A stretch of DNA of 64,000 bases from Chrysoperla carnea (taxonomy: Eukaryota > Arthropoda > Insecta > Neuroptera > Chrysopidae): NCBI RefSeq assembly GCF_905475395.1, contig NC_058342.1, forward strand, positions 21,920,640 to 21,984,639. Direction: 5' to 3'. Under the pieces are notes generated by a model that made no database searches, was not told the DNA's origin, and saw only the letters and a list, made by a program, of their open reading frames with translations. A program made the position numbers and the translations under genes. Positions 22,524 to 44,207 of the stretch are shown here, in pieces (the first letter of the stretch is position 1; each line of letters starts with the position of its first letter).

Positions 22524-22679
22524 CGCCCGCCGGCGCCACAACCGGACTTTTAAAACTTAACCAACTTGGACTTTCATTTTTGGACCATGGCCATGGCCAC
22601 AGCCGGTCGATCAACCGGTCCAAAAGTGAAAGTCCAAGGTGGTTAAGTTTGAAAAGTCCGGATGTGGCGCCGGCGGGTG
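22524..22679. repeat. GC-rich long inverted repeat (hairpin)
   Basis: Arms 22524-22586 and 22617-22679 are near-perfect reverse complements (63 bp each, a few mismatches), separated by 30 bases that contain a CCATGGCCATGG palindrome. The outer part (GCCCGCCGGCGCCAC) is strikingly GC-rich in an AT-rich neighbourhood. It would fold into a long stable stem. It may be a foldback element or hairpin RNA precursor; the sequence alone does not decide. Confidence 0.75.
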
Positions 22680-23364: not shown

Positions 23365-25308
23365 TTATACCCTGGAGGGTGTTAAATCATGAGGCTGTAG
23401 ACGTTTTCTTCTCTGGCGGGTTGGTTTGTTATTGTGGCTGAATTGTGGCTCGATTTCAGCTTGTTGGGTTTCTTCTTCGCGTTTCGTGAAATGGACGGCA
23501 GGTGTAGTTTCACTGCTACTCAAACAGGAGATTTTGGACCATCCAAATTGTAGATAATTATATATTATGGGTAAACATCCACACTTAAAGCAAACATATA
23601 TAATAATCAGTGTGATCGTTAATGCAATTGTGAATTTAAGCGTAAACCAATTGGATGTTGGAAAATATTTTCCCAAGAATTCGACATGGTCGTGTATTTC
23701 TTTATCCAATTGCTGATCCAGGCTTTGCAAATGATGCAAGTTGTTCGCAAATTGTTCTAAGTTTGAGAAATGTAGTTGAGTAGGTGTTATATTTTTAATT
23801 ATTTCGGATTTCTTCCTGCATTCTCCACAGTAGCTGATATTGATGTCTGGTATGAAATCACTAAATGGATAAGTCTTTTTAACCATTAAGGGTTTTAATT
23901 CGACGTGATTTGTAAATCCATAGCAATTTTTATTGATTGTAATTTTGGTGATGCTTGTTCCAAGTTCGAATTGTTTTATGGTGTTGTTACAATTAACCGT
24001 TAAGCCGATTGGATTTGAGGTTAAAACCATCCATTGATTAGAGTGTATTTGCTGCCAAATTTCGTGGGTAGCATAATACTTTAAAACTTCACATTCTTTT
24101 GGGATTTGATGAGTTGTTACGGCGAAAAGTTTGGATTCGCATTCTTCGTTGTTGTCGATGTATTTTGTGCCTTCTCTGCATATGAACTTTTGCTCTTGAT
24201 ATTCCTTGCAACTGTTAAGTGTTGTATCCAATATTTGTCGCCTACGATTTTTGCTTGTTAACAGGAAGGGTTTTTTTATTTTGATGGTTTGGTAAAGGTT
24301 TTTAACGATGGGATCAGATATAGGTAGGGAGTAAATCTGGTAGATATCATATTCGTTAAGGTCTACTAGTGTAATTTTTATTTCGATTACCAAGGTTTGT
24401 TTTCAGTTGTAGGGAGTAATGTCCATGGTTTTGTAATAGAACTCTATGTTTGTATACGTTGGTGCAAAAGGTAAATTTAAATTTGTTGCCTTTTTTAATT
24501 CGTCTAATAAAGTTCTTGGCGGTAAAATGTCAAAATTAACAAGATTGTGGCGTGATAGTGTTATGGATCTTTCGAATTTGTCGAGTTCGTTATGGAGCAA
24601 TGATAACAATTCCTTTAATAGAATTTCTAATTGGTTTGTATTTACGTCTTCGTTAAGTATTCGTACTTTGTTTGTCAATTTGTCTGTTTGTGATATTACT
24701 TCGTTAAGTTTGTTCTCTAAAATTTTTATCTGGTTCTGAGTTTTGTTGTGTTGTTTTAAACTATCGGTTATTATTCTTGCTTGATTTTGAATAATCTTGT
24801 TCACATCATTCTGTTCCGTTACTAGTTTATTTACATTTTCGAATAAAAAGTCTGTGTCTGTCGCGTCTGGATTTCCCGTTAATTTATGCCAGATATTTCC
24901 TATACCGTCGAACCATCCATGTTCGTATTTAATCGTACGCTTGACTCTTTTAGTATTGAAATAACTTTCGGCTAGATCATTGGATCTACCCTTTAAATCT
25001 TTAAATTCTAAATTGTAAAATTCATAGGTGAGCTTACATTGCTCATGTATGGGGTTGCATTGTCCTTGAGTGTTGTTAATGTTACACAGATTTTCAAATC
25101 CTTTGAGATATTGAGGTATGTTTTTGTTTATTCTGTCTATAAAACTAATATTGTATACGTGGATTAAGGCTAAGTAATTGTTAATGATTTTAGCTTCGCC
25201 TAGATGATTAAAGTATGTAGGGTTTTTTATTTGATCAGTCTGAACTTGTGCTAGGGCCTGGTTCGCTAGGATCAGGGTCGTCGCTAATATTAGAATCATC
25301 TGTAACAA
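23365..25308 (-). pseudogene. env: errantivirus-type envelope gene, one internal stop
   Basis: Envelope-like protein of an insect env-bearing Gypsy retroelement, with the layout of F-type fusion glycoproteins. An N-terminal hydrophobic signal segment is followed by a dibasic furin-type site (RVKR) about 120 residues in, then a presumed fusion region, coiled-coil-like heptads and several N-x-S/T sites. Near the C terminus is one long hydrophobic membrane segment (about 23590-23660), followed by a cytoplasmic tail. The frame runs from ATG at 25308 to the stop at 23365 but is broken by a single in-frame TGA at 24405-24403; both halves lie in the same frame. It overlaps the end of pol by 74 nt. 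The tandem array starts inside this gene at 24687, so only this copy has the 3' part. The element also lacks its 5' half, so it is defective. Confidence 0.8.
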
Positions 25309-26653
25309 AAGGTTTCAAGAATTTGTAATGTATCCATTTTTCAAATTTTTTCATTTTTATGAGAGCTACGTGTTTTACGGGATATGTTTTAATTATTTCG
25401 TAGGGTCCTTGATAATAACTTTTTAATTTTTTATCCTTGTCGTGCTTGTGAGCATGGGTATCGTATACGAGTATTTTCTGTCCGATTTCGAATTTTTTAG
25501 GTTTAGTATTTTTATCGTATTGGGTCTTGCTTTGCATTTTTGAGGTGTTTAAATTTTTTATTGCAATTTTTCTCATATTTGCTATCTTTGTTTTTACATC
25601 AGTGGCAAGATGATTGTAAGTGGGTAAATTGGTTTTATCTTTTAAATGTTTCGCTTTTTCTCCAAACACTAACTCATATGGAGTAAATTTAGTATTTCTG
25701 TTTTCTGTAGTGTTATAAGCATAACACGCAAATTGTATGTAGTGATCCCAATCGTTAAGGTTTTCACTTACATAATTTCTTAAATAATTTTTTAATTCTT
25801 GGTGGCTTCGTTCTATACTTCCGTTACTTTCTGGGTTATATTGGGTAGTCTGTTTGTGTTTGATGTCAAGGATCTTATTTATTTCTTTAGCCAGCTTATT
25901 TACAAAGTTACTGCCGTTATCTGTCAATATGATTTGGGGAAATCCGTATTTGGTGCAGTGATCTAAAAATTTAATAGCTGTAAATTCAGCAGTGTTTTGT
26001 GGTAGCGGGTATGAATTTAAAAATTTTGTTAAATTATCTTGAATAGTCAAGATATATCGGTTTTCGGACTGTGTGATCGCAAATGGACCTACTATATCCA
26101 TAGAAACCATTTCATTGAAAGAGGTGGGTGTTTTAGTGATCACCATAGGAGGTTTTTTAAATTTTGGCACTTTATTTATTTGGCATTGTGGACAAGCTTT
26201 TATATATTCCTCAACGTCTTTTGAAAGTGTTTTCCAAAAATATCTTTGTCTTAGTTTCTTTATTGTATTATGAACACCTTTGTGGCCGGAAACTAAATCG
26301 TCATGTGCCTGCTTGATTAAAGTTTTTCTTTCGTTTAGATCTCTTATAACAATTGTGCTTGTTCTTAGGATATTAACGTTGATGTCTAGTTTGTTAAAAA
26401 AGTAATTTAAAATTTTAGTCAAATTTTCTTCTGTTATGAGAACAGAGAGTTGCGATATGTCATAAATATAGACAGTTGGTGGTTTCGTAACAGATATCAG
26501 ATATTGGTATAAACTATATAGTGAATCAAATAAATTTTCTTCTGTAATTTGTTCGAGAGCAGAATTTTTACATGGCATTATGTAATAATTTTTCTCATTA
26601 AAGTCAATTTTTTCTGTTTGGTTGAGAGTAAATTGATCAATAGCATCTAACAT
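25235..26653 (-). CDS. pol: Gypsy-type integrase (pol C-terminal), array copy 1
   Basis: 472-codon open frame. Integrase joins retroelement cDNA to host DNA. Visible parts are the HHCC zinc-binding domain (HDDLVSGHKGVH...CPQCQ), the catalytic core with D (SMDIVGPF), D (LTDNGSNF) and E (NGSIERSHQELK), and a C-terminal chromo/GPY-like region (YYQGPYEII...KWIHYKFLKPF). It is the tail of a longer pol. Upstream, RNase H is present but broken and then lost at 27003. Its 3' end overlaps env (25308) by 74 nt, so in the intact element env would be expressed from a spliced RNA, as known for errantiviruses. The same 472-residue translation occurs in all three array copies. Confidence 0.88.
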   Translation of the reverse strand: MLDAIDQFTLNQTEKIDFNEKNYYIMPCKNSALEQITEENLFDSLYSLYQYLISVTKPPTVYIYDISQLSVLITEENLTKILNYFFNKLDINVNILRTSTIVIRDLNERKTLIKQAHDDLVSGHKGVHNTIKKLRQRYFWKTLSKDVEEYIKACPQCQINKVPKFKKPPMVITKTPTSFNEMVSMDIVGPFAITQSENRYILTIQDNLTKFLNSYPLPQNTAEFTAIKFLDHCTKYGFPQIILTDNGSNFVNKLAKEINKILDIKHKQTTQYNPESNGSIERSHQELKNYLRNYVSENLNDWDHYIQFACYAYNTTENRNTKFTPYELVFGEKAKHLKDKTNLPTYNHLATDVKTKIANMRKIAIKNLNTSKMQSKTQYDKNTKPKKFEIGQKILVYDTHAHKHDKDKKLKSYYQGPYEIIKTYPVKHVALIKMKKFEKWIHYKFLKPFVTDDSNISDDPDPSEPGPSTSSD

Positions 26654-27003
26654 AGGTTCAATGAAGTCGAAAAATTTATTATTTTGGGATTTATCTACCG
26701 AAAAGGGAAGTATGACGTTATCTAAATCTTCTATAGGTAAATTAGTTTGGTTATATTGTGTGGCCTCTGTTATATTTTCAGATCAACGTTTAAAATTGTC
26801 GTAAGTTTTTTCAGCTATTAGGTCTTGAATTACTAACACAGGTCTAGAAAGTGTGTCTGCGTTAGAATTCTTTTTTCCACTTTTGTTTGTATATGATTGT
26901 GTAATCGTATTCTTCTAATTTTAATCTCCATCGAACTAATTTTGAAGTGACATCCTTGCAATTTTTAAGCCATTCGAGGCTCTTATGGTCCGTCCTAATT
27001 ATA
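26654..27003 (-). pseudogene. Gypsy RNase H fragment
   Basis: Minus strand gives IIRTDHKSLEWLKNCKD, SKLVRWRLKLEEYDYTI and, after a one-base shift at a poly-A run near 26870, NSNADTLSR: the conserved end of Gypsy RNase H. A further in-frame stop lies near 26790. At 27003/27004 the sequence changes abruptly to the Tigger relic, so protease, reverse transcriptase, gag and the 5' LTR are absent. Confidence 0.75.
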
Positions 27004-27790
27004 AAGTGGTACCAATGCTTAGAGCTGCAAAAAAGCTGGCAGACGTAGCGTGGTTGTTGCTGGTAACAAAAGTCTTTAAGGATTGATTTTGTTCTCCAAA
27101 TTAATACACGTTTAGCAATGTATTCAGGTTTATTCGGGTTCTCATGTATAAGAAGTTATAAATCCGATCAACAGTGAAAATATTTTGCCAAAACCTTTTC
27201 TAGGTTCTCGAAGAAATCATTTACCGCAGTCTTGTTGAATCCATAAGACCTTGCAACACTAGTGTTTTCTGGTTTTCTTAATCTTAAATTTACGTTTCGT
27301 CTGCGAAAACTGTCTAGCTATTCTTCACCAGCCATTTTGTTATGATCTCAGCTAAGTGGATAACGTAGTTTATTGGCTTTATCGAATTCTTATGCCAATT
27401 TTCTCGTTTGTAAAATCGTCAATCCGAAGTGCATTTTTGAGCAATCTGTGATGTACTTTTTTAAAAGTGACTCTTCTTGGGTAGTGAATATGTACTTGAT
27501 TTGACGTGAATTTAGAAGTAAAAACACGCGTTGGGATGTGAGCGTCTGCATTTCTTTTAAACTTCGCCAAGCGACTTTGAAGTGTAGTTTGTTTGGCGGC
27601 ATACTTTTCTGCAGATTTTCGAATTGATAAAGTTCTATCTAAAACCTCCTTCTTCGCAGATTTCATTGCATCTTCATCTACTTTGAATTCAGTCCATAGA
27701 ATATATAACCTAACGGATAGAATGAAATCTGAACTAATTTTTCAAATTGTGCGCTACAGACGTCTTGATGTTGAACTAAAATTAATTTAG
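27004..27790 (-). mobile_element. pogo/Tigger transposase relic, N-terminal half
   Basis: Minus strand, broken frames. An N-terminal pipsqueak-type HTH (LSIRKSAEKYAAKQTTLQSR, about 27565-27625) is followed by a CENP-B-type segment (FTTQEESLLKKYI...HFGLTILQTRKLA, 27390-27490). Then come AGEE..DSFRRRNVNLRLRKPEN, NKTAVNDFFENLEKVL and PNKPEYIAKR. The order matches pogo-family transposases up to the first catalytic block. The second half is missing because Gypsy sequence starts at 27003. Repeated at 33510-34296 and 40016-40802. Confidence 0.66.
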
Positions 27791-30700
27791 CAAGAAACTC
27801 CATATTATTTCCTTTTAAATTGTTTATATTAATATTATTTAAATGTTATATGTAAACAAAAACAAATACCAATTTAAATAAAATAATTTTATTATATAAA
27901 TAAAAAATACATTACAATGAATAAATTTACATTAATTTTCTAACAAAATATTTTAACAAAATATTATTAAAGAAAAAAAAATTTTTGTTAGCAAGTTTTT
28001 CGTAAAAATGATCAATACAATATATTACATTTTGTATTTTAAGCCATTTTTCATAATAGTTTTTTCAGAAAATGAAATCTTTTGAGTCAGATTAGAATCA
28101 TTTGTCGCAAATATTGTCGAAAAAATTTCATTTGCTTATTAAAAATTTTAGTTTTGAAGACATTTGTGAATATCAAATTAGTACTGTCTTCTCCCTCAAA
28201 AATTTTATTATCTCTGTAAAAGAGAACTGAATAGAATTTTCGTAGAGGAAAAACTTGTAGAGGAAAAACCACGCGACGCGTCCTCCTTTTTCATGTCAAG
28301 ATTTTGTATGGCGAATTTGATTACATTTTTACAATTCTCTTTTGAGTAGTTTGTTCCCAGAAATTGATAGAAATTCAATGTATTTTAAATTAGAGATTGT
28401 CTTTAATATAGTGGTCTCATTTTTTATCAATTCTCCTTAAATGGGACGATTTTAGGACATCCTCACTATATCTAATAACCGAAAAATACCCAAACATAAA
28501 AGATTAGTTAATTATTTACTTTTTATGTTTGTACTGGTCATGCAACTTCTTCGCGATTTTATACAAGCTACTACTATTTCTTTACCGGCCAATATACTAT
28601 TAAATCCGTTAAAATAAGTGAACACAATCATCTTGCAAAAATTATGTACAATATTAAATTTCAACTTCGTAGAATGCTCGCATTCTTTGAAATTGAATTT
28701 TACGTTCTGAAAAACCGTTTTCGTAATCACTTTTAACAAATGTTTTTTTGTTTGGGTCATTTTTCAAAATAAATTTAGCAATATTATAAGCCTTAGTCAT
28801 ATTTAATAAAAATTGACTATTTATATAGTTAAGCCTAGTAGCAACCCCCCCCCCCCCTCCCAAACTCTTTTTCGCGCACAAAATTTAAAAATTCTTTATC
28901 CTCCTCCTGCTGCAAAAACACATTATATTTACACTCCTCACACTTTTTTATTTTAATGTTTTTTAAAATATACCCCAATACATAAGCAATAGCATTTTTC
29001 TCTAAATCATTTAAAATATGACTCAAAACTTCAGATGGAATCTCAACCGCTGTAATCTCCGCTTCTCCTCTCTCCTGATTTTCACTCTAATAAGAAAAAA
29101 AAAACCATTAGTAAAAAATAAAAGTAATTTTTTGTAACTGTTTTCAGAAAATTTTAAAATCGATAAAAATAACAATATTCTAACTATAATTTTTTAGAAA
29201 CGTAGAAACATAATCAAGTTCTTAAATAAATTTAACAAAAGTTATCAATAATTGTTAATAATCAAAAGTTATTATTTACCTGTAGGATAAATGTTTGCAA
29301 TGGAATCAGCAAATCCGACCCATCATCTTCACAATTCCCTCCCACAGAATGTTTACTAAGTTAGTGACCAGAAGAGATTTGTAAAACGGTCCAAAAGCAT
29401 GGCACGGTGGTTTCGACCACCGACTTCCTCGTTGACGAACTTTCAAGAAAAAATTCTCTAAGGGATCTTGGTTCAAAAACCTGGGAACCAACGTCTCAAT
29501 TCCAAGATCTTTTAATTTATTCGTCGGTGGGCGTGTCCTTCGTCTTCCACTCGAGTCGAGGCATTCCATACTTTTGAAAATGGGGATAGCCTCTCTCCAA
29601 ATTTTACTTGTAAGCTATCCCCTTCCTTAAGATCTATCTGAGTTTTGAGTTTTTTTCCTCCTTCGTTGAAAGGTCCGCAACCATTGACGCTATCGAACAC
29701 ATCATCCATAAATTTTAAAAAAACTACCGTTTCTGTAGCGCCTCTCCATTTTCGTTTCACCAATATTGAATTCTGAAAAATAAACCTCATTTAAGCCTTG
29801 TTTTATATTTACACTTAATTGGCAATAAAAGTTTTACGCAAACACTTACACACTTTGCTAGTGATGGAATGTAGAAAATCAAATTTTAAAAATTATTGTC
29901 CATTTACTGAAGAATTAAGAATATTTTTAAAAATTTGAATCTTTAATAAAATAAACTTTAACTTACCACTTTTGGCCATTAAATTGATTCCTGCCGCAAC
30001 TGAACGACTAAAAATTTGGGCACAAACAGAAACTTTCAGTAAACAACAGTAAATTTTTTTTTTTCGGTTTTCTTTCAACAGTATTCCACCGTGCAATATA
30101 CGATTTAGTATTAAATTTTTTTTTACACCCATCATAACTCATATAACGTATTTTGCCAAAGACATCCCGACTCCGAAAACCCCTATCATGAACACCTGCA
30201 ATCGACGCCATACAACCAACATAAGCATTTGGATCATTACCATCTAGCGCATAATGATTGTTTAAATATAATGCATACTCCAAAGCTTGTGTTGGTGTTT
30301 CTGTCCATTCTAATATTTTTTTGGCCCAATATATTCGCATATACACGTGCATCTTTCCTGTTTTATATAATTCTTTTTGTGTTGCATTCCATAATTCATC
30401 ATGTGTACGTCCATGTTTAAATTCCTCTAAAGTATACGTATAGTCACGTTTGTCTGTAGCGTGCTCATTTAACGTTAGTTGAGCCCATCTTGGTGCCCCC
30501 TCTAACTTATTATAAGTCTCGGTATTATAATAACAAAAGTTATCCGAGAGTTCACGACGTACTATTATATGTTCTCGGAATAAATTCACACTTTTCACAA
30601 TTGCCTTATTTTTGACTTCAGGCAACACTAAGACACAACTTATTTTTGGATTGACATGATGCTTCGTCAACTTGTGCATTACTCTAAGATCGCCACTTGG

Positions 30701-31192
30701 AGAGTCCAATATCCAAGCTTTCAGGATATCGTTCCACTTCGCCACTTTTTTTCACCGTCTTTCTGGAATAAAATATTTTTTGATATCAAATTATTTCTTA
30801 TTTCTTTTAAGAGATGGGGAGTTTCAAAGAGAGGAATTATTGTTGATTCTCCAATTTCAAAAACTTGATGCCTGAGTTCCTCACCTCGGGCCAAATATTT
30901 TCCCCGGGTATCCTCTAGTAAACGATGGATCGCGTTGATATTATTTGACCCTTGGTCACAAATAGTACCGACAACATTAAATCCAGCATTTTGTGCAGCC
31001 AAAATAATTTCTTTAATGGCCTTTACTATTTGTGGCCCTTTTGCGGCTCCATTCACAAACTGGTATAGCACCGACTGTTTTCAATTTTGGACAATTCCTC
31101 TTAACATAAAAACCTTAAATTATAAATCTTAAATTATAATATAAGATTTTTAGAATAAATGAAGAGTTGTGGGTACAATGATTAAATTACAA
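27791..31192 (-). mobile_element. P-element-like relic with photolyase insert, copy 1
   Basis: Minus-strand remains of a THAP9/P-element-type transposase that keep the exon structure. Block A, about 31110-30721, has LYQFVNGAAKGPQIV, ICDQGSNN, HRLLEDTRGKY, PLFETPHLLKEIRNNL. Block B, 30745-30644, has AKWNDILKAW, KLTKHHV. Then comes the photolyase insert. Block C, 30085-29967, has KVSVCAQIFSRSVAAGINLM and a donor at 29966-29965. Exon 29772-29280 has FMDDVFDSVNG and NQDPLENFFLKVRQRG. Exon from 29086 has KNAIAYVLGYILK, CEECK and a C-terminal helix region to 28512. Damage: TGA for the expected Trp near 31092, a one-base slip at the A7 run near 30748, a frameshift near 29540 and an unstable poly-C tract (28845-28857). 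The N-terminal THAP domain was not found. Confidence 0.78.
30086..30643 (-). pseudogene. class II CPD photolyase C-terminal fragment, copy 1
   Basis: About 186 residues matching the C-terminal FAD/DNA-binding domain of class II deoxyribodipyrimidine photolyases, which use blue light to split UV-induced cyclobutane dimers. Blocks in order: IIVRRELSDNFCYYN, WAQLTLNEH, TLEEFKHGRTHDELWNA, GKMHVYMRIYWAKKILEW, LDGNDPNAYVGCM, DVFGKIRYMSYDGCKKKF. The N-terminal antenna domain (more than half of a normal 450-550-residue enzyme) is absent. P-transposase sequence lies on both sides: upstream KLTKHHVNPK in the same open frame, downstream KVSVCAQIFSRSV in another frame. Within the fragment there is no stop or intron. 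The Trp usual in GCMWSI is Ala, and the Trp usual in HDxGW is Phe, so repair activity is unlikely. Repeated at 36592-37149 and 43101-43658. Confidence 0.85.
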
Positions 31193-31814
31193 TTTGTGAT
31201 ATTACTTCGTTAAGTTTGTTCTCTAAAATTTTTATCTGGTTCTGAGTTTTGTTGTGTTGTTTTAAACTATCGGTTATTATTCTTGCTTGATTTTGAATAA
31301 TCTTGTTCACATCATTCTGTTCCGTTACTAGTTTATTTACATTTTCGAATAAAAAGTCTGTGTCTGTCGCGTCTGGATTTCCCGTTAATTTATGCCAGAT
31401 ATTTCCTATACCGTCGAACCATCCATGTTCGTATTTAATCGTACGCTTGACTCTTTTAGTATTGAAATAACTTTCGGCTAGATCATTGGATCTACCCTTT
31501 AAATCTTTAAATTCTAAATTGTAAAATTCATAGGTGAGCTTACATTGCTCATGTATGGGGTTGCATTGTCCTTGAGTGTTGTTAATGTTACACAGATTTT
31601 CAAATCCTTTGAGATATTGAGGTATGTTTTTGTTTATTCTGTCTATAAAACTAATATTGTATACGTGGATTAAGGCTAAGTAATTGTTAATGATTTTAGC
31701 TTCGCCTAGATGATTAAAGTATGTAGGGTTTTTTATTTGATCAGTCTGAACTTGTGCTAGGGCCTGGTTCGCTAGGATCAGGGTCGTCGCTAATATTAGA
31801 ATCATCTGTAACAA
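31182..31814 (-). pseudogene. truncated env, array copy 2
   Basis: Repeat of the N-terminal part of env (signal segment, RVKR site, start of the coiled-coil region). After about 207 residues the array junction at 31192/31193 replaces the remaining two-thirds with junk codons and a stop. It lacks the membrane anchor. Confidence 0.85.
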
Positions 31815-33159
31815 AAGGTTTCAAGAATTTGTAATGTATCCATTTTTCAAATTTTTTCATTTTTATGAGAGCTACGTGTTTTACGGGATATGTTTTAATT
31901 ATTTCGTAGGGTCCTTGATAATAACTTTTTAATTTTTTATCCTTGTCGTGCTTGTGAGCATGGGTATCGTATACGAGTATTTTCTGTCCGATTTCGAATT
32001 TTTTAGGTTTAGTATTTTTATCGTATTGGGTCTTGCTTTGCATTTTTGAGGTGTTTAAATTTTTTATTGCAATTTTTCTCATATTTGCTATCTTTGTTTT
32101 TACATCAGTGGCAAGATGATTGTAAGTGGGTAAATTGGTTTTATCTTTTAAATGTTTCGCTTTTTCTCCAAACACTAACTCATATGGAGTAAATTTAGTA
32201 TTTCTGTTTTCTGTAGTGTTATAAGCATAACACGCAAATTGTATGTAGTGATCCCAATCGTTAAGGTTTTCACTTACATAATTTCTTAAATAATTTTTTA
32301 ATTCTTGGTGGCTTCGTTCTATACTTCCGTTACTTTCTGGGTTATATTGGGTAGTCTGTTTGTGTTTGATGTCAAGGATCTTATTTATTTCTTTAGCCAG
32401 CTTATTTACAAAGTTACTGCCGTTATCTGTCAATATGATTTGGGGAAATCCGTATTTGGTGCAGTGATCTAAAAATTTAATAGCTGTAAATTCAGCAGTG
32501 TTTTGTGGTAGCGGGTATGAATTTAAAAATTTTGTTAAATTATCTTGAATAGTCAAGATATATCGGTTTTCGGACTGTGTGATCGCAAATGGACCTACTA
32601 TATCCATAGAAACCATTTCATTGAAAGAGGTGGGTGTTTTAGTGATCACCATAGGAGGTTTTTTAAATTTTGGCACTTTATTTATTTGGCATTGTGGACA
32701 AGCTTTTATATATTCCTCAACGTCTTTTGAAAGTGTTTTCCAAAAATATCTTTGTCTTAGTTTCTTTATTGTATTATGAACACCTTTGTGGCCGGAAACT
32801 AAATCGTCATGTGCCTGCTTGATTAAAGTTTTTCTTTCGTTTAGATCTCTTATAACAATTGTGCTTGTTCTTAGGATATTAACGTTGATGTCTAGTTTGT
32901 TAAAAAAGTAATTTAAAATTTTAGTCAAATTTTCTTCTGTTATGAGAACAGAGAGTTGCGATATGTCATAAATATAGACAGTTGGTGGTTTCGTAACAGA
33001 TATCAGATATTGGTATAAACTATATAGTGAATCAAATAAATTTTCTTCTGTAATTTGTTCGAGAGCAGAATTTTTACATGGCATTATGTAATAATTTTTC
33101 TCATTAAAGTCAATTTTTTCTGTTTGGTTGAGAGTAAATTGATCAATAGCATCTAACAT
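31741..33159 (-). CDS. pol: Gypsy-type integrase, array copy 2
   Basis: Encodes the same 472 residues as 25235-26653, with the HHCC domain and D, D, E core intact. Upstream RNase H is broken in the same way, so it is a repeated copy of a defective element, not an independent insertion. Confidence 0.85.
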   Translation of the reverse strand: MLDAIDQFTLNQTEKIDFNEKNYYIMPCKNSALEQITEENLFDSLYSLYQYLISVTKPPTVYIYDISQLSVLITEENLTKILNYFFNKLDINVNILRTSTIVIRDLNERKTLIKQAHDDLVSGHKGVHNTIKKLRQRYFWKTLSKDVEEYIKACPQCQINKVPKFKKPPMVITKTPTSFNEMVSMDIVGPFAITQSENRYILTIQDNLTKFLNSYPLPQNTAEFTAIKFLDHCTKYGFPQIILTDNGSNFVNKLAKEINKILDIKHKQTTQYNPESNGSIERSHQELKNYLRNYVSENLNDWDHYIQFACYAYNTTENRNTKFTPYELVFGEKAKHLKDKTNLPTYNHLATDVKTKIANMRKIAIKNLNTSKMQSKTQYDKNTKPKKFEIGQKILVYDTHAHKHDKDKKLKSYYQGPYEIIKTYPVKHVALIKMKKFEKWIHYKFLKPFVTDDSNISDDPDPSEPGPSTSSD

Positions 33160-33509
33160 AGGTTCAATGAAGTCGAAAAATTTATTATTTTGGGATTTAT
33201 CTACCGAAAAGGGAAGTATGACGTTATCTAAATCTTCTATAGGTAAATTAGTTTGGTTATATTGTGTGGCCTCTGTTATATTTTCAGATCAACGTTTAAA
33301 ATTGTCGTAAGTTTTTTCAGCTATTAGGTCTTGAATTACTAACACAGGTCTAGAAAGTGTGTCTGCGTTAGAATTCTTTTTTCCACTTTTGTTTGTATAT
33401 GATTGTGTAATCGTATTCTTCTAATTTTAATCTCCATCGAACTAATTTTGAAGTGACATCCTTGCAATTTTTAAGCCATTCGAGGCTCTTATGGTCCGTC
33501 CTAATTATA
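33160..33509 (-). pseudogene. Gypsy RNase H fragment, copy 2
   Basis: Copy of 26654-27003 with the same frameshift, stop and abrupt junction to Tigger sequence. Confidence 0.72.
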
Positions 33510-34296
33510 AAGTGGTACCAATGCTTAGAGCTGCAAAAAAGCTGGCAGACGTAGCGTGGTTGTTGCTGGTAACAAAAGTCTTTAAGGATTGATTTTGTTC
33601 TCCAAATTAATACACGTTTAGCAATGTATTCAGGTTTATTCGGGTTCTCATGTATAAGAAGTTATAAATCCGATCAACAGTGAAAATATTTTGCCAAAAC
33701 CTTTTCTAGGTTCTCGAAGAAATCATTTACCGCAGTCTTGTTGAATCCATAAGACCTTGCAACACTAGTGTTTTCTGGTTTTCTTAATCTTAAATTTACG
33801 TTTCGTCTGCGAAAACTGTCTAGCTATTCTTCACCAGCCATTTTGTTATGATCTCAGCTAAGTGGATAACGTAGTTTATTGGCTTTATCGAATTCTTATG
33901 CCAATTTTCTCGTTTGTAAAATCGTCAATCCGAAGTGCATTTTTGAGCAATCTGTGATGTACTTTTTTAAAAGTGACTCTTCTTGGGTAGTGAATATGTA
34001 CTTGATTTGACGTGAATTTAGAAGTAAAAACACGCGTTGGGATGTGAGCGTCTGCATTTCTTTTAAACTTCGCCAAGCGACTTTGAAGTGTAGTTTGTTT
34101 GGCGGCATACTTTTCTGCAGATTTTCGAATTGATAAAGTTCTATCTAAAACCTCCTTCTTCGCAGATTTCATTGCATCTTCATCTACTTTGAATTCAGTC
34201 CATAGAATATATAACCTAACGGATAGAATGAAATCTGAACTAATTTTTCAAATTGTGCGCTACAGACGTCTTGATGTTGAACTAAAATTAATTTAG
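33510..34296 (-). mobile_element. pogo/Tigger transposase relic, copy 2
   Basis: Copy of 27004-27790, with the same pipsqueak HTH and CENP-B-type blocks and the same broken frames. Confidence 0.64.
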
Positions 34297-37200
34297 CAAG
34301 AAACTCCATATTATTTCCTTTTAAATTGTTTATATTAATATTATTTAAATGTTATATGTAAACAAAAACAAATACCAATTTAAATAAAATAATTTTATTA
34401 TATAAATAAAAAATACATTACAATGAATAAATTTACATTAATTTTCTAACAAAATATTTTAACAAAATATTATTAAAGAAAAAAAAATTTTTGTTAGCAA
34501 GTTTTTCGTAAAAATGATCAATACAATATATTACATTTTGTATTTTAAGCCATTTTTCATAATAGTTTTTTCAGAAAATGAAATCTTTTGAGTCAGATTA
34601 GAATCATTTGTCGCAAATATTGTCGAAAAAATTTCATTTGCTTATTAAAAATTTTAGTTTTGAAGACATTTGTGAATATCAAATTAGTACTGTCTTCTCC
34701 CTCAAAAATTTTATTATCTCTGTAAAAGAGAACTGAATAGAATTTTCGTAGAGGAAAAACTTGTAGAGGAAAAACCACGCGACGCGTCCTCCTTTTTCAT
34801 GTCAAGATTTTGTATGGCGAATTTGATTACATTTTTACAATTCTCTTTTGAGTAGTTTGTTCCCAGAAATTGATAGAAATTCAATGTATTTTAAATTAGA
34901 GATTGTCTTTAATATAGTGGTCTCATTTTTTATCAATTCTCCTTAAATGGGACGATTTTAGGACATCCTCACTATATCTAATAACCGAAAAATACCCAAA
35001 CATAAAAGATTAGTTAATTATTTACTTTTTATGTTTGTACTGGTCATGCAACTTCTTCGCGATTTTATACAAGCTACTACTATTTCTTTACCGGCCAATA
35101 TACTATTAAATCCGTTAAAATAAGTGAACACAATCATCTTGCAAAAATTATGTACAATATTAAATTTCAACTTCGTAGAATGCTCGCATTCTTTGAAATT
35201 GAATTTTACGTTCTGAAAAACCGTTTTCGTAATCACTTTTAACAAATGTTTTTTTGTTTGGGTCATTTTTCAAAATAAATTTAGCAATATTATAAGCCTT
35301 AGTCATATTTAATAAAAATTGACTATTTATATAGTTAAGCCTAGTAGCAACGCCCCCCCCCCCTCCCAAACTCTTTTTCGCGCACAAAATTTAAAAATTC
35401 TTTATCCTCCTCCTGCTGCAAAAACACATTATATTTACACTCCTCACACTTTTTTATTTTAATGTTTTTTAAAATATACCCCAATACATAAGCAATAGCA
35501 TTTTTCTCTAAATCATTTAAAATATGACTCAAAACTTCAGATGGAATCTCAACCGCTGTAATCTCCGCTTCTCCTCTCTCCTGATTTTCACTCTAATAAG
35601 AAAAAAAAAACCATTAGTAAAAAATAAAAGTAATTTTTTGTAACTGTTTTCAGAAAATTTTAAAATCGATAAAAATAACAATATTCTAACTATAATTTTT
35701 TAGAAACGTAGAAACATAATCAAGTTCTTAAATAAATTTAACAAAAGTTATCAATAATTGTTAATAATCAAAAGTTATTATTTACCTGTAGGATAAATGT
35801 TTGCAATGGAATCAGCAAATCCGACCCATCATCTTCACAATTCCCTCCCACAGAATGTTTACTAAGTTAGTGACCAGAAGAGATTTGTAAAACGGTCCAA
35901 AAGCATGGCACGGTGGTTTCGACCACCGACTTCCTCGTTGACGAACTTTCAAGAAAAAATTCTCTAAGGGATCTTGGTTCAAAAACCTGGGAACCAACGT
36001 CTCAATTCCAAGATCTTTTAATTTATTCGTCGGTGGGCGTGTCCTTCGTCTTCCACTCGAGTCGAGGCATTCCATACTTTTGAAAATGGGGATAGCCTCT
36101 CTCCAAATTTTACTTGTAAGCTATCCCCTTCCTTAAGATCTATCTGAGTTTTGAGTTTTTTTCCTCCTTCGTTGAAAGGTCCGCAACCATTGACGCTATC
36201 GAACACATCATCCATAAATTTTAAAAAAACTACCGTTTCTGTAGCGCCTCTCCATTTTCGTTTCACCAATATTGAATTCTGAAAAATAAACCTCATTTAA
36301 GTCTTGTTTTATATTTACACTTAATTGGCAATAAAAGTTTTACGCAAACACTTACACACTTTGCTAGTGATGGAATGTAGAAAATCAAATTTTAAAAATT
36401 ATTGTCCATTTACTGAAGAATTAAGAATATTTTTAAAAATTTGAATCTTTAATAAAATAAACTTTAACTTACCACTTTTGGCCATTAAATTGATTCCTGC
36501 CGCAACTGAACGACTAAAAATTTGGGCACAAACAGAAACTTTCAGTAAACAACAGTAAATTTTTTTTTTTCGGTTTTCTTTCAACAGTATTCCACCGTGC
36601 AATATACGATTTAGTATTAAATTTTTTTTTACACCCATCATAACTCATATAACGTATTTTGCCAAAGACATCCCGACTCCGAAAACCCCTATCATGAACA
36701 CCTGCAATCGACGCCATACAACCAACATAAGCATTTGGATCATTACCATCTAGCGCATAATGATTGTTTAAATATAATGCATACTCCAAAGCTTGTGTTG
36801 GTGTTTCTGTCCATTCTAATATTTTTTTGGCCCAATATATTCGCATATACACGTGCATCTTTCCTGTTTTATATAATTCTTTTTGTGTTGCATTCCATAA
36901 TTCATCATGTGTACGTCCATGTTTAAATTCCTCTAAAGTATACGTATAGTCACGTTTGTCTGTAGCGTGCTCATTTAACGTTAGTTGAGCCCATCTTGGT
37001 GCCCCCTCTAACTTATTATAAGTCTCGGTATTATAATAACAAAAGTTATCCGAGAGTTCACGACGTACTATTATATGTTCTCGGAATAAATTCACACTTT
37101 TCACAATTGCCTTATTTTTGACTTCAGGCAACACTAAGACACAACTTATTTTTGGATTGACATGATGCTTCGTCAACTTGTGCATTACTCTAAGATCGCC

Positions 37201-37698
37201 ACTTGGAGAGTCCAATATCCAAGCTTTCAGGATATCGTTCCACTTCGCCACTTTTTTTCACCGTCTTTCTGGAATAAAATATTTTTTGATATCAAATTAT
37301 TTCTTATTTCTTTTAAGAGATGGGGAGTTTCAAAGAGAGGAATTATTGTTGATTCTCCAATTTCAAAAACTTGATGCCTGAGTTCCTCACCTCGGGCCAA
37401 ATATTTTCCCCGGGTATCCTCTAGTAAACGATGGATCGCGTTGATATTATTTGACCCTTGGTCACAAATAGTACCGACAACATTAAATCCAGCATTTTGT
37501 GCAGCCAAAATAATTTCTTTAATGGCCTTTACTATTTGTGGCCCTTTTGCGGCTCCATTCACAAACTGGTATAGCACCGACTGTTTTCAATTTTGGACAA
37601 TTCCTCTTAACATAAAAACCTTAAATTATAAATCTTAAATTATAATATAAGATTTTTAGAATAAATGAAGAGTTGTGGGTACAATGATTAAATTACAA
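34297..37698 (-). mobile_element. P-element-like relic, copy 2
   Basis: Copy of 27791-31192 with the same exon blocks (for example 35786-36278 and from 35592) and the same lesions. The poly-C tract here contains a G. Confidence 0.77.
36592..37149 (-). pseudogene. class II photolyase fragment, copy 2
   Basis: Identical in translation to 30086-30643, including the Ala and Phe replacing the two conserved Trp, and embedded in the same place in the P-type transposase. Confidence 0.85.
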
Positions 37699-38320
37699 TT
37701 TGTGATATTACTTCGTTAAGTTTGTTCTCTAAAATTTTTATCTGGTTCTGAGTTTTGTTGTGTTGTTTTAAACTATCGGTTATTATTCTTGCTTGATTTT
37801 GAATAATCTTGTTCACATCATTCTGTTCCGTTACTAGTTTATTTACATTTTCGAATAAAAAGTCTGTGTCTGTCGCGTCTGGATTTCCCGTTAATTTATG
37901 CCAGATATTTCCTATACCGTCGAACCATCCATGTTCGTATTTAATCGTACGCTTGACTCTTTTAGTATTGAAATAACTTTCGGCTAGATCATTGGATCTA
38001 CCCTTTAAATCTTTAAATTCTAAATTGTAAAATTCATAGGTGAGCTTACATTGCTCATGTATGGGGTTGCATTGTCCTTGAGTGTTGTTAATGTTACACA
38101 GATTTTCAAATCCTTTGAGATATTGAGGTATGTTTTTGTTTATTCTGTCTATAAAACTAATATTGTATACGTGGATTAAGGCTAAGTAATTGTTAATGAT
38201 TTTAGCTTCGCCTAGATGATTAAAGTATGTAGGGTTTTTTATTTGATCAGTCTGAACTTGTGCTAGGGCCTGGTTCGCTAGGATCAGGGTCGTCGCTAAT
38301 ATTAGAATCATCTGTAACAA
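37688..38320 (-). pseudogene. truncated env, array copy 3
   Basis: Identical to 31182-31814: N-terminal third of env cut by the junction at 37698/37699. Confidence 0.85.
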
Positions 38321-39665
38321 AAGGTTTCAAGAATTTGTAATGTATCCATTTTTCAAATTTTTTCATTTTTATGAGAGCTACGTGTTTTACGGGATATGTT
38401 TTAATTATTTCGTAGGGTCCTTGATAATAACTTTTTAATTTTTTATCCTTGTCGTGCTTGTGAGCATGGGTATCGTATACGAGTATTTTCTGTCCGATTT
38501 CGAATTTTTTAGGTTTAGTATTTTTATCGTATTGGGTCTTGCTTTGCATTTTTGAGGTGTTTAAATTTTTTATTGCAATTTTTCTCATATTTGCTATCTT
38601 TGTTTTTACATCAGTGGCAAGATGATTGTAAGTGGGTAAATTGGTTTTATCTTTTAAATGTTTCGCTTTTTCTCCAAACACTAACTCATATGGAGTAAAT
38701 TTAGTATTTCTGTTTTCTGTAGTGTTATAAGCATAACACGCAAATTGTATGTAGTGATCCCAATCGTTAAGGTTTTCACTTACATAATTTCTTAAATAAT
38801 TTTTTAATTCTTGGTGGCTTCGTTCTATACTTCCGTTACTTTCTGGGTTATATTGGGTAGTCTGTTTGTGTTTGATGTCAAGGATCTTATTTATTTCTTT
38901 AGCCAGCTTATTTACAAAGTTACTGCCGTTATCTGTCAATATGATTTGGGGAAATCCGTATTTGGTGCAGTGATCTAAAAATTTAATAGCTGTAAATTCA
39001 GCAGTGTTTTGTGGTAGCGGGTATGAATTTAAAAATTTTGTTAAATTATCTTGAATAGTCAAGATATATCGGTTTTCGGACTGTGTGATCGCAAATGGAC
39101 CTACTATATCCATAGAAACCATTTCATTGAAAGAGGTGGGTGTTTTAGTGATCACCATAGGAGGTTTTTTAAATTTTGGCACTTTATTTATTTGGCATTG
39201 TGGACAAGCTTTTATATATTCCTCAACGTCTTTTGAAAGTGTTTTCCAAAAATATCTTTGTCTTAGTTTCTTTATTGTATTATGAACACCTTTGTGGCCG
39301 GAAACTAAATCGTCATGTGCCTGCTTGATTAAAGTTTTTCTTTCGTTTAGATCTCTTATAACAATTGTGCTTGTTCTTAGGATATTAACGTTGATGTCTA
39401 GTTTGTTAAAAAAGTAATTTAAAATTTTAGTCAAATTTTCTTCTGTTATGAGAACAGAGAGTTGCGATATGTCATAAATATAGACAGTTGGTGGTTTCGT
39501 AACAGATATCAGATATTGGTATAAACTATATAGTGAATCAAATAAATTTTCTTCTGTAATTTGTTCGAGAGCAGAATTTTTACATGGCATTATGTAATAA
39601 TTTTTCTCATTAAAGTCAATTTTTTCTGTTTGGTTGAGAGTAAATTGATCAATAGCATCTAACAT
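38247..39665 (-). CDS. pol: Gypsy-type integrase, array copy 3
   Basis: Third copy of the 472-residue integrase end of pol, identical in translation to the other two. Confidence 0.85.
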   Translation of the reverse strand: MLDAIDQFTLNQTEKIDFNEKNYYIMPCKNSALEQITEENLFDSLYSLYQYLISVTKPPTVYIYDISQLSVLITEENLTKILNYFFNKLDINVNILRTSTIVIRDLNERKTLIKQAHDDLVSGHKGVHNTIKKLRQRYFWKTLSKDVEEYIKACPQCQINKVPKFKKPPMVITKTPTSFNEMVSMDIVGPFAITQSENRYILTIQDNLTKFLNSYPLPQNTAEFTAIKFLDHCTKYGFPQIILTDNGSNFVNKLAKEINKILDIKHKQTTQYNPESNGSIERSHQELKNYLRNYVSENLNDWDHYIQFACYAYNTTENRNTKFTPYELVFGEKAKHLKDKTNLPTYNHLATDVKTKIANMRKIAIKNLNTSKMQSKTQYDKNTKPKKFEIGQKILVYDTHAHKHDKDKKLKSYYQGPYEIIKTYPVKHVALIKMKKFEKWIHYKFLKPFVTDDSNISDDPDPSEPGPSTSSD

Positions 39666-40015
39666 AGGTTCAATGAAGTCGAAAAATTTATTATTTTGGG
39701 ATTTATCTACCGAAAAGGGAAGTATGACGTTATCTAAATCTTCTATAGGTAAATTAGTTTGGTTATATTGTGTGGCCTCTGTTATATTTTCAGATCAACG
39801 TTTAAAATTGTCGTAAGTTTTTTCAGCTATTAGGTCTTGAATTACTAACACAGGTCTAGAAAGTGTGTCTGCGTTAGAATTCTTTTTTCCACTTTTGTTT
39901 GTATATGATTGTGTAATCGTATTCTTCTAATTTTAATCTCCATCGAACTAATTTTGAAGTGACATCCTTGCAATTTTTAAGCCATTCGAGGCTCTTATGG
40001 TCCGTCCTAATTATA
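39666..40015 (-). pseudogene. Gypsy RNase H fragment, copy 3
   Basis: Copy of 26654-27003 with the same lesions. Confidence 0.72.
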
Positions 40016-40802
40016 AAGTGGTACCAATGCTTAGAGCTGCAAAAAAGCTGGCAGACGTAGCGTGGTTGTTGCTGGTAACAAAAGTCTTTAAGGATTGATT
40101 TTGTTCTCCAAATTAATACACGTTTAGCAATGTATTCAGGTTTATTCGGGTTCTCATGTATAAGAAGTTATAAATCCGATCAACAGTGAAAATATTTTGC
40201 CAAAACCTTTTCTAGGTTCTCGAAGAAATCATTTACCGCAGTCTTGTTGAATCCATAAGACCTTGCAACACTAGTGTTTTCTGGTTTTCTTAATCTTAAA
40301 TTTACGTTTCGTCTGCGAAAACTGTCTAGCTATTCTTCACCAGCCATTTTGTTATGATCTCAGCTAAGTGGATAACGTAGTTTATTGGCTTTATCGAATT
40401 CTTATGCCAATTTTCTCGTTTGTAAAATCGTCAATCCGAAGTGCATTTTTGAGCAATCTGTGATGTACTTTTTTAAAAGTGACTCTTCTTGGGTAGTGAA
40501 TATGTACTTGATTTGACGTGAATTTAGAAGTAAAAACACGCGTTGGGATGTGAGCGTCTGCATTTCTTTTAAACTTCGCCAAGCGACTTTGAAGTGTAGT
40601 TTGTTTGGCGGCATACTTTTCTGCAGATTTTCGAATTGATAAAGTTCTATCTAAAACCTCCTTCTTCGCAGATTTCATTGCATCTTCATCTACTTTGAAT
40701 TCAGTCCATAGAATATATAACCTAACGGATAGAATGAAATCTGAACTAATTTTTCAAATTGTGCGCTACAGACGTCTTGATGTTGAACTAAAATTAATTT
40801 AG
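40016..40802 (-). mobile_element. pogo/Tigger transposase relic, copy 3
   Basis: Copy of 27004-27790 with the same broken frames. Confidence 0.64.
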
Positions 40803-43800
40803 CAAGAAACTCCATATTATTTCCTTTTAAATTGTTTATATTAATATTATTTAAATGTTATATGTAAACAAAAACAAATACCAATTTAAATAAAATAATT
40901 TTATTATATAAATAAAAAATACATTACAATGAATAAATTTACATTAATTTTCTAACAAAATATTTTAACAAAATATTATTAAAGAAAAAAAAATTTTTGT
41001 TAGCAAGTTTTTCGTAAAAATGATCAATACAATATATTACATTTTGTATTTTAAGCCATTTTTCATAATAGTTTTTTCAGAAAATGAAATCTTTTGAGTC
41101 AGATTAGAATCATTTGTCGCAAATATTGTCGAAAAAATTTCATTTGCTTATTAAAAATTTTAGTTTTGAAGACATTTGTGAATATCAAATTAGTACTGTC
41201 TTCTCCCTCAAAAATTTTATTATCTCTGTAAAAGAGAACTGAATAGAATTTTCGTAGAGGAAAAACTTGTAGAGGAAAAACCACGCGACGCGTCCTCCTT
41301 TTTCATGTCAAGATTTTGTATGGCGAATTTGATTACATTTTTACAATTCTCTTTTGAGTAGTTTGTTCCCAGAAATTGATAGAAATTCAATGTATTTTAA
41401 ATTAGAGATTGTCTTTAATATAGTGGTCTCATTTTTTATCAATTCTCCTTAAATGGGACGATTTTAGGACATCCTCACTATATCTAATAACCGAAAAATA
41501 CCCAAACATAAAAGATTAGTTAATTATTTACTTTTTATGTTTGTACTGGTCATGCAACTTCTTCGCGATTTTATACAAGCTACTACTATTTCTTTACCGG
41601 CCAATATACTATTAAATCCGTTAAAATAAGTGAACACAATCATCTTGCAAAAATTATGTACAATATTAAATTTCAACTTCGTAGAATGCTCGCATTCTTT
41701 GAAATTGAATTTTACGTTCTGAAAAACCGTTTTCGTAATCACTTTTAACAAATGTTTTTTTGTTTGGGTCATTTTTCAAAATAAATTTAGCAATATTATA
41801 AGCCTTAGTCATATTTAATAAAAATTGACTATTTATATAGTTAAGCCTAGTAGCAACCCCCCCCCCCCCCCCTCCCAAACTCTTTTTCGCGCACAAAATT
41901 TAAAAATTCTTTATCCTCCTCCTGCTGCAAAAACACATTATATTTACACTCCTCACACTTTTTTATTTTAATGTTTTTTAAAATATACCCCAATACATAA
42001 GCAATAGCATTTTTCTCTAAATCATTTAAAATATGACTCAAAACTTCAGATGGAATCTCAACCGCTGTAATCTCCGCTTCTCCTCTCTCCTGATTTTCAC
42101 TCTAATAAGAAAAAAAAAACCATTAGTAAAAAATAAAAGTAATTTTTTGTAACTGTTTTCAGAAAATTTTAAAATCGATAAAAATAACAATATTCTAACT
42201 ATAATTTTTTAGAAACGTAGAAACATAATCAAGTTCTTAAATAAATTTAACAAAAGTTATCAATAATTGTTAATAATCAAAAGTTATTATTTACCTGTAG
42301 GATAAATGTTTGCAATGGAATCAGCAAATCCGACCCATCATCTTCACAATTCCCTCCCACAGAATGTTTACTAAGTTAGTGACCAGAAGAGATTTGTAAA
42401 ACGGTCCAAAAGCATGGCACGGTGGTTTCGACCACCGACTTCCTCGTTGACGAACTTTCAAGAAAAAATTCTCTAAGGGATCTTGGTTCAAAAACCTGGG
42501 AACCAACGTCTCAATTCCAAGATCTTTTAATTTATTCGTCGGTGGGCGTGTCCTTCGTCTTCCACTCGAGTCGAGGCATTCCATACTTTTGAAAATGGGG
42601 ATAGCCTCTCTCCAAATTTTACTTGTAAGCTATCCCCTTCCTTAAGATCTATCTGAGTTTTGAGTTTTTTTCCTCCTTCGTTGAAAGGTCCGCAACCATT
42701 GACGCTATCGAACACATCATCCATAAATTTTAAAAAAACTACCGTTTCTGTAGCGCCTCTCCATTTTCGTTTCACCAATATTGAATTCTGAAAAATAAAC
42801 CTCATTTAAGCCTTGTTTTATATTTACACTTAATTGGCAATAAAAGTTTTACGCAAACACTTACACACTTTGCTAGTGATGGAATGTAGAAAATCAAATT
42901 TTAAAAATTATTGTCCATTTACTGAAGAATTAAGAATATTTTTAAAAATTTGAATCTTTAATAAAATAAACTTTAACTTACCACTTTTGGCCATTAAATT
43001 GATTCCTGCCGCAACTGAACGACTAAAAATTTGGGCACAAACAGAAACTTTCAGTAAACAACAGTAAATTTTTTTTTTTCGGTTTTCTTTCAACAGTATT
43101 CCACCGTGCAATATACGATTTAGTATTAAATTTTTTTTTACACCCATCATAACTCATATAACGTATTTTGCCAAAGACATCCCGACTCCGAAAACCCCTA
43201 TCATGAACACCTGCAATCGACGCCATACAACCAACATAAGCATTTGGATCATTACCATCTAGCGCATAATGATTGTTTAAATATAATGCATACTCCAAAG
43301 CTTGTGTTGGTGTTTCTGTCCATTCTAATATTTTTTTGGCCCAATATATTCGCATATACACGTGCATCTTTCCTGTTTTATATAATTCTTTTTGTGTTGC
43401 ATTCCATAATTCATCATGTGTACGTCCATGTTTAAATTCCTCTAAAGTATACGTATAGTCACGTTTGTCTGTAGCGTGCTCATTTAACGTTAGTTGAGCC
43501 CATCTTGGTGCCCCCTCTAACTTATTATAAGTCTCGGTATTATAATAACAAAAGTTATCCGAGAGTTCACGACGTACTATTATATGTTCTCGGAATAAAT
43601 TCACACTTTTCACAATTGCCTTATTTTTGACTTCAGGCAACACTAAGACACAACTTATTTTTGGATTGACATGATGCTTCGTCAACTTGTGCATTACTCT
43701 AAGATCGCCACTTGGAGAGTCCAATATCCAAGCTTTCAGGATATCGTTCCACTTCGCCACTTTTTTTCACCGTCTTTCTGGAATAAAATATTTTTTGATA

Positions 43801-44207
43801 TCAAATTATTTCTTATTTCTTTTAAGAGATGGGGAGTTTCAAAGAGAGGAATTATTGTTGATTCTCCAATTTCAAAAACTTGATGCCTGAGTTCCTCACC
43901 TCGGGCCAAATATTTTCCCCGGGTATCCTCTAGTAAACGATGGATCGCGTTGATATTATTTGACCCTTGGTCACAAATAGTACCGACAACATTAAATCCA
44001 GCATTTTGTGCAGCCAAAATAATTTCTTTAATGGCCTTTACTATTTGTGGCCCTTTTGCGGCTCCATTCACAAACTGGTATAGCACCGACTGTTTTCAAT
44101 TTTGGACAATTCCTCTTAACATAAAAACCTTAAATTATAAATCTTAAATTATAATATAAGATTTTTAGAATAAATGAAGAGTTGTGGGTACAATGATTAA
44201 ATTACAA
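40803..44207 (-). mobile_element. P-element-like relic, copy 3
   Basis: Copy of 27791-31192. To its right, beyond 44207, no N-terminal THAP domain or P-type inverted repeat was found, so the element was already 5'-truncated, or too decayed to see, before amplification. Confidence 0.77.
43101..43658 (-). pseudogene. class II photolyase fragment, copy 3
   Basis: Identical in translation to 30086-30643. Confidence 0.85.

Follow-up and report, generated by a model that had tools for sequence, protein, structure and literature searches.

A class II photolyase fragment within P-type transposase remnants of the lacewing Chrysoperla carnea

The filling of gaps in P elements is known from Drosophila, where it takes place under artificial activation of the transposase (PMC8277862). 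As far as the portion of that report considered here goes, the insect reference genomes in its survey gave no Pack-TIR, and an FB4 family (Ssk-FB4) in fly populations was the sole case. For the P-derived MITEs of Anopheles gambiae, ectopic repair has been proposed in the consulted section of PMC1562414. The lacewing locus described here resembles gap-filled P elements and Pack-TIRs in that non-transposon sequence lies within a TIR-class transposon and there is microhomology at a joint, but the lacewing filler has no parental copy among the six genome matches that we obtained. It is also like the A. gambiae elements, in which internal P sequence is thought to have been repaired with ectopic genomic sequence (PMC1562414, same section). 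In contrast to those MITEs, the lacewing case keeps its transposase flanks and the filler is identifiable coding sequence.

On the side of the filler, the closest systems are the CPDII duplications of Tephritoidea and Odonata (PMC10102093, in the passages considered) and the CPD photolyases that baculoviruses took over from insect hosts (PMC5704228, in the passages considered). As in the former, a further class II phr lineage that has diverged belongs to an insect, but the lacewing has 5'-truncated fragments only, and these lie in transposon debris. With the latter it shares an insect-type phr in a foreign genome, but it shows no virus, only a PolB fragment beside one copy. Among the literature records retrieved for P element, photolyase and transposase we found no such arrangement, the words co-occurring in unrelated contexts, and by titles and the starts of abstracts there was no such case for photolyase captured by transposable elements, gene capture by P elements, or photolyase in Neuroptera. 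The locus looks like a natural case, in an insect, of a P-type element filled with coding sequence that can be identified.

A photolyase piece in a P-type transposase remnant

The window, the whole stretch of 64,000 nt that was analysed (C6:21920640-21984639), is taken to be part of the X chromosome of Chrysoperla carnea. Inside a P-type transposase it contains ~196 residues from the C-terminal end of a class II photolyase. Against the NCBIfam model phr2 (TIGR00591) the piece matches model positions 274-453 of 453 with an E value of 5.5e-85 and 286 bits (the full-length cut-off is 550), far beyond chance, and six distinct solved photolyase sequences match it as well (best E 2.4e-67); the class II assignment is thus carried by both profile and structure matches. 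A tblastn search with the C. carnea photolyase encoded by the host phr gene (P0002, residues 338-532) aligned with the piece at 65% identity. The preliminary description had found the right region, while its limits of 30643-30086 differ from those given by homology, 30637-30050 on the minus strand (Table 1).

The same tblastn search found no N-terminal photolyase part in the window, and the piece, confined to the last part of the phr2 model, has neither the antenna nor a complete FAD domain. A near-invariant tryptophan of the lesion site, in a column with a conservation of 1.0 (rounded) among 117 reference rows, is replaced by alanine at residue 158 of the window protein (P0001) and is kept both in P0002 and in a photolyase protein from a metagenome (P0003). 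We take this residue to be the equivalent of W421 of the Methanosarcina mazei photolyase (MmCPDII), with its role at the lesion site. Further replacements in the piece are M116I, G152A, G112V and W168F.

Table 1. Features of the window and matches of the photolyase piece elsewhere in the genome (positions are those of the window unless a chromosome is named)
Feature	Position	Strand	Evidence or remarks
Tandem unit 1, 6506 bp	24687..31192		Part of gypsy-like env, integrase, RNase H piece, unassigned ORFs, P remnant with photolyase
Tandem unit 2, 6506 bp	31193..37698		Near-identical to unit 1
Tandem unit 3, 6509 bp	37699..44207		P sequence runs on past the unit end to about 44272
Upstream P-type transposase remnant with N-terminal part of RNase H	30651..31193	-	PF21787 E 3.4e-6; open frames; tblastn with P0121 and P0124; aligned to L007
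Class II photolyase C-terminal piece, unit 1	30050..30637	-	Homologous to P0002 residues 338-532
P-type transposase resuming (KVSVCAQIFSRSVAAGINLMAKSG) in another frame	29925..30036	-	Open frames; tblastn; alignment to L007
P-type transposase, remainder of GTP-binding insertion domain	29512..29790	-	PF21788 E 0.0025, 18.6 bits, below cut-off 24.8
P-type transposase RNase H C-terminal part (LNQDPLENFF), another frame	29306..29614	-	PF21789 E 2.8e-5; P0122, P0123
P-type transposase C-terminal remnants	28519..29086	-	PF12596 E 0.0019, 19.2 bits, below cut-off 22.6; P0123
Photolyase piece, tandem unit 2	36556..37143	-	tblastn with P0002; 100% in whole-genome search
Photolyase piece, tandem unit 3	43065..43652	-	tblastn with P0002; 100% in whole-genome search
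Whole-genome match, second locus (L004)	C6:12829572-12830090		
Whole-genome match, host phr	C4		68%
Whole-genome match, fragment	C3		56%, with stop

The transposase around the insert shows the two RNase H halves split by the GTP-binding insertion domain (PF21787 and PF21789 above their cut-offs, PF21788 below), in the order of the relatives P0124 and P0125. In P0124 the insertion place falls within the GTP-binding insertion domain (PF21788, 87-202). The sequence at this place is uninterrupted in P0124 (HINPNNFQKMRVKLAAQIFS), in P0125 and in a C. carnea P remnant elsewhere on the X, L004 (KKIFKKIKVAVCAQIFS), which bears out the earlier statement that the flanking transposase blocks are normally adjacent. 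Entry into the photolyase is in frame with the transposase and exit is not, again as first described: KLTKHHVNP upstream and the photolyase share one open frame of 247 aa (30751-30008), while the transposase after the insert, KVSVCAQIFSRSVAAGI, is in another frame from about 30036.

The P transposase in the window is dead. Its 5' end is missing, comparison with P0121 shows a nonsense codon, and two frame breaks separate its open frames besides the insert, one of them in an A run where a consensus error is conceivable. The upstream remnant, which extends to KLTKHHVNP, holds the nonsense codon and a frame break, and the transposase frames upstream of the photolyase are broken in all three copies. 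There is no THAP N-terminal domain in the window copy, since in the tandem units tblastn with P0121 matches only residues 309-364 of that protein; THAP is present in the C. carnea relatives P0121 and P0123. By eye, a donor-like GTAAGT site follows the block in which the transposase resumes. P0122 and P0123 (C. carnea LOC123302987 and LOC123302277; X) are annotated proteins that incorporate P-type transposase pieces, 92% and 90% like those of the window over a third of the query.

The preliminary description gave a single insert. The piece is in fact present three times in the window, because a block of 6506-6509 bp is tandemly triplicated, and once more elsewhere on the X. The blocks lie head to tail between 24687 and 44207 with one base shared at the unit borders, and the three units differ at two bases and one C run. 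The triplication is very recent, subject to the assembly, in which an error is possible. The gypsy-like env of the units matches PF07253 with an E value of 0.004, below the cut-off, when the whole frame in the left copy is scored, and we presume its frame to be that of an errantivirus. At 23365-26782 the window has gypsy-like env and integrase frames, and a stop interrupts the env frame.

A second X locus and the joints

A whole-genome search with the photolyase piece, in which the best candidates were scored, gave six matches, three of them the window copies (Table 1). Among them L004 lies 9.1 Mb from the window on the X, and 541 of its 541 bases equal window 30589-30049. There the piece is joined in frame behind the transposase C-terminus (SSLYKIAKKLHDQY), giving an open frame of 300 aa, and the P remnant is uninterrupted at the site where the window copy carries its insert. 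The 5' and 3' joints differ between the two loci, lying inside the GTP-binding insertion domain in the window and after the transposase C-terminus at L004.

Four aligned P blocks of the window and L004 differ by 30 substitutions in 1218 positions and by 8 indels. The photolyase differs at 0/541, as compared to about 13 differences expected (Poisson P(0) = 1.6e-6), indicating that it reached both loci after the P copies had split; homogenisation of the photolyase between the two loci is a possible alternative to this late arrival. At its 5' end the photolyase of the window copy is 48 bases longer than that of L004. L004 as it stands was therefore not the donor, and either a third source existed or L004 has been trimmed. 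On the question raised earlier of whether other P elements carry the insert, the best-scored candidates give one more carrier, L004, in which the piece is joined at the end of the remnant and not at the window's site. Both carrier places (one of them triplicated) are broken remnants with different joints, and the piece is younger than the P split, which speaks against capture as a feature of the element. A cargo borne by the P family was rejected: the L004 P copy is uninterrupted, and among the best-scored candidates a near-identical piece occurs at two places only.

At the undisturbed P site, as read from L004, T's come after an A run, and the 3' end of the photolyase likewise has an A run with TTT behind it. 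A 12-base A/T word is common to the two at the 3' joint, and was matched by 1 of 3000 random pairs of stretches. At the 5' joint no clear shared word was found, and 8 bases (AAAATAAG) stay unassigned; microhomology of the Pack-TIR kind is evident at the 3' joint alone. The 3' joint also has a 7-base direct repeat, TTTACTG, at a spacing of 10. Direct repeats of this kind are a trace that templated insertions can leave, and are not rare by chance, occurring in 146 of 3998 stretches of 32 bases in the window (3.7%) and in 7 of 325 within the P remnant. A 10-base duplication there could by itself account for the out-of-frame exit. The joints fit template switching in break repair and are no proof of it.

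A 5'-truncated, LINE-made retrocopy of phr mRNA inserted into the P element would likewise be intronless, carry only the C-terminal end and have an A run near its 3' end, as the piece does (A11). In the host gene, however, the stretch sits within one unbroken block, neither a stop codon nor a 3'UTR precedes the A run, further and different sequence follows the A run at L004, and no flanking duplication was seen by eye. We consider such a retrocopy very unlikely. A processed retrocopy was rejected, as the piece has no poly(A) after a stop and 3'UTR and no flanking duplication. The loss of introns had been proposed earlier as a test of capture; the host gene can be compared in this respect, but because it carries residues ~306-539 in one unbroken block the test does not discriminate.

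The joining of transposase and photolyase in open frames at both loci (247 aa and 300 aa) and the run of 190 photolyase codons without a stop are what a transposase-photolyase fusion gene, functional once or now, would show, and on paper the chimeric protein suggested in the preliminary description is possible. Against it are the partial FAD domain (phr2 274-453 only), the replacement of the near-invariant Trp by Ala together with the four further replacements, the broken transposase frames upstream of all three copies, and a mean pLDDT of 64.5 for the AF2 model; the copies are identical, leaving no time over which selection after capture could be tested. We regard a fusion gene as extremely improbable, and the insert probably has no function.

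The donor lineage

The host phr, a search for which the preliminary description had proposed, is present on chromosome 4 (68% in the whole-genome search). Its amino acid identity with the piece is 65-68%, and a comparison of the piece with the host exon over 189 codons gave a dN of 0.224 and a dS of 1.446, which is near saturation. The host phr was rejected as the direct donor on this identity and the dS of 1.45. The earlier reading of a captured host gene therefore stands for a photolyase coding piece embedded in a P-type transposase and fails for the chromosome 4 gene, as it stands, as the source. No longer near-identical donor was found among the six whole-genome matches, the best candidates having been scored.

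A FastTree tree was built over 184 columns from the listed protein hits (120 of 7954). In it P0002 and P0003 form the sister group of the piece with a support of 0.97, and branch lengths from the shared node are 0.444 for the piece, 0.194 for P0002 and 0.263 for P0003. At 11 sites the piece keeps the state usual among the references, and P0002 and P0003 agree on a different one. Differences between the piece and the host exon fall 44/31/85 on the three codon positions of the 189 codons. At sites equal in P0002 and P0003, counted from after two probably misaligned columns beside the 5' joint, the piece has changed at 11/81 conserved (≥90%) sites as compared to 16/35 variable (<70%) sites (Fisher p = 5e-4). 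From the codon positions, dN/dS and the conserved sites, the donor was evidently a coding gene through most of the time that it evolved apart. These comparisons point to a separate phr lineage that evidently evolved under purifying selection.

At the most conserved sites, counted for the piece from the same column, it departs at 3/56 (5.4%); the highest of 117 reference rows, as well as P0002 and P0003, reach 3.4%. This is a small difference in number, yet it includes the W421-equivalent Trp and counts against present function. In a neutral simulation that ignored indels and used a simple mutation model (400 runs each), the frame stayed free of stops in 24% of runs at 20 amino acid changes, 4% at 40 and 1% at 55, and some drift after capture may have occurred. 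The donor is more interesting than the capture, as a second, constrained photolyase lineage left identical fragments at two loci. Whether it was a lost gene or part of a virus or giant transposon is directly testable.

That the donor was a second chromosomal lacewing phr paralogue, now lost, collapsed or unassembled, is quite possible if short of probable, and is compatible with an origin of the piece as filler. The place of the piece in the tree of listed hits (120 of 7954), next to the host photolyase and P0003, and the 11 sites with the common reference state, agree with this. So does an older phr fragment on chromosome 3 (L010:4782-5065; 56%, with a stop and a frame break), which groups weakly with the piece (support 0.52 and 0.66) and by eye starts near the start of the host phr exon. 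Two CPDII genes are reported for Tephritoidea and for the damselfly Ischnura elegans in the passages considered of PMC10102093; the same passages credit C. carnea with all four members of the family and mention no duplication of CPDII in it. A second full phr is likewise absent from the six whole-genome matches (best candidates scored) and from the 120 listed of 7954 protein hits, whose candidates were limited in length. A parvovirus NS1-like helicase frame lies about 2 kb from the chromosome 3 fragment (L010:1977-2720, E 5.9e-12), and with L013:8588-9184 (E 8.7e-19) and others seen by eye it apparently belongs to a repeated family on chromosome 3. We draw no link between this helicase and phr, since NS1-like ORFs recur nearby and chromosome 3 has one listed phr match.

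The surroundings of L004 raise the alternative that the pieces derive, as fragments, from a DNA virus or a large Polinton-like transposon with a lacewing-derived phr, integrated at breaks (at L004 with PolB, in the window phr alone). At L004 the piece is directly followed by a DNA_pol_B_2 frame (PF03175, E 9e-6, 25.3 bits; cut-off 25.8), which in our reading is of the protein-primed, Polinton-like kind, and farther along there is a YqaJ-like recombinase ORF (L008:3-653, E 1.1e-11). Identical copies at unlike joints would fit a recent source from outside, faster yet constrained evolution would fit a virus-borne gene, and the part of PMC5704228 considered lists the baculovirus CPD photolyase among the genes most likely of lepidopteran origin. 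The PolB stretch is however partial (model 232-365 of 468) with a broken frame, and L004 may simply be another patchwork. Scans of viral contigs with the photolyase, the PolB piece and an NS1 piece yielded no relative, a scan with alignment A1 gave one locus at 57% identity, and titles and abstracts of the listed papers on Maverick or Polinton elements mention no photolyase cargo. We consider this origin unlikely. In its specific form, in which a lacewing DNA virus or large transposon with an insect-derived class II photolyase beside a B-family polymerase, met intact nowhere in the searched part of the assembly, recently seeded the X fragments with P-element breaks as landing sites, it is a shade less likely still.

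Proposed origin and other elements in the window

The best explanation, which we hold to be somewhat probable, is that the photolyase piece is filler DNA made by template switching in break repair and afterwards amplified in tandem, and that it is not functional. A break in the transposase gene of a P-type copy on the C. carnea X, either an excision gap or another double-strand break, would have been repaired by synthesis that jumped to a photolyase-like template and then returned, a putative process of which the junction itself is seen. About 590 bp of last-exon coding sequence of the donor would have been left as filler, with the shared A/T run guiding the 3' joint. We infer that the template belonged to the second phr lineage and was not the host gene on chromosome 4, the donor being absent from the six matches. 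The element, already dead or killed by the filling, would then have been enclosed with gypsy-like retroelement debris in the 6.5-kb block that was triplicated, and a second, different joint would have attached this photolyase sequence to the end of the P remnant 9.1 Mb away. As two insertions of one rare sequence went into P remnants, the link may be more specific than random filler.

Other mobile sequences were found in the window. At 52046-57970 an open frame of 1551 aa (52616-57271) without a significant Pfam match lies between two inverted repeats, each about 590 bp long and 95.8% identical to the other, and the whole resembles a young DNA transposon; related sequence occurs in L010 (73-74% over 146 and 154 bases) and, by eye, in L012. 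Two self-complementary stretches, 49339-49628 (77%) and 22526-22677 (80%), are MITE-like palindromes. A long transposase-like frame at 58899-60752 matches DDE_1 (E 1.6e-26) and, just under the cut-off, HTH_psq (E 4.8e-4), and we label it as of the pogo type.
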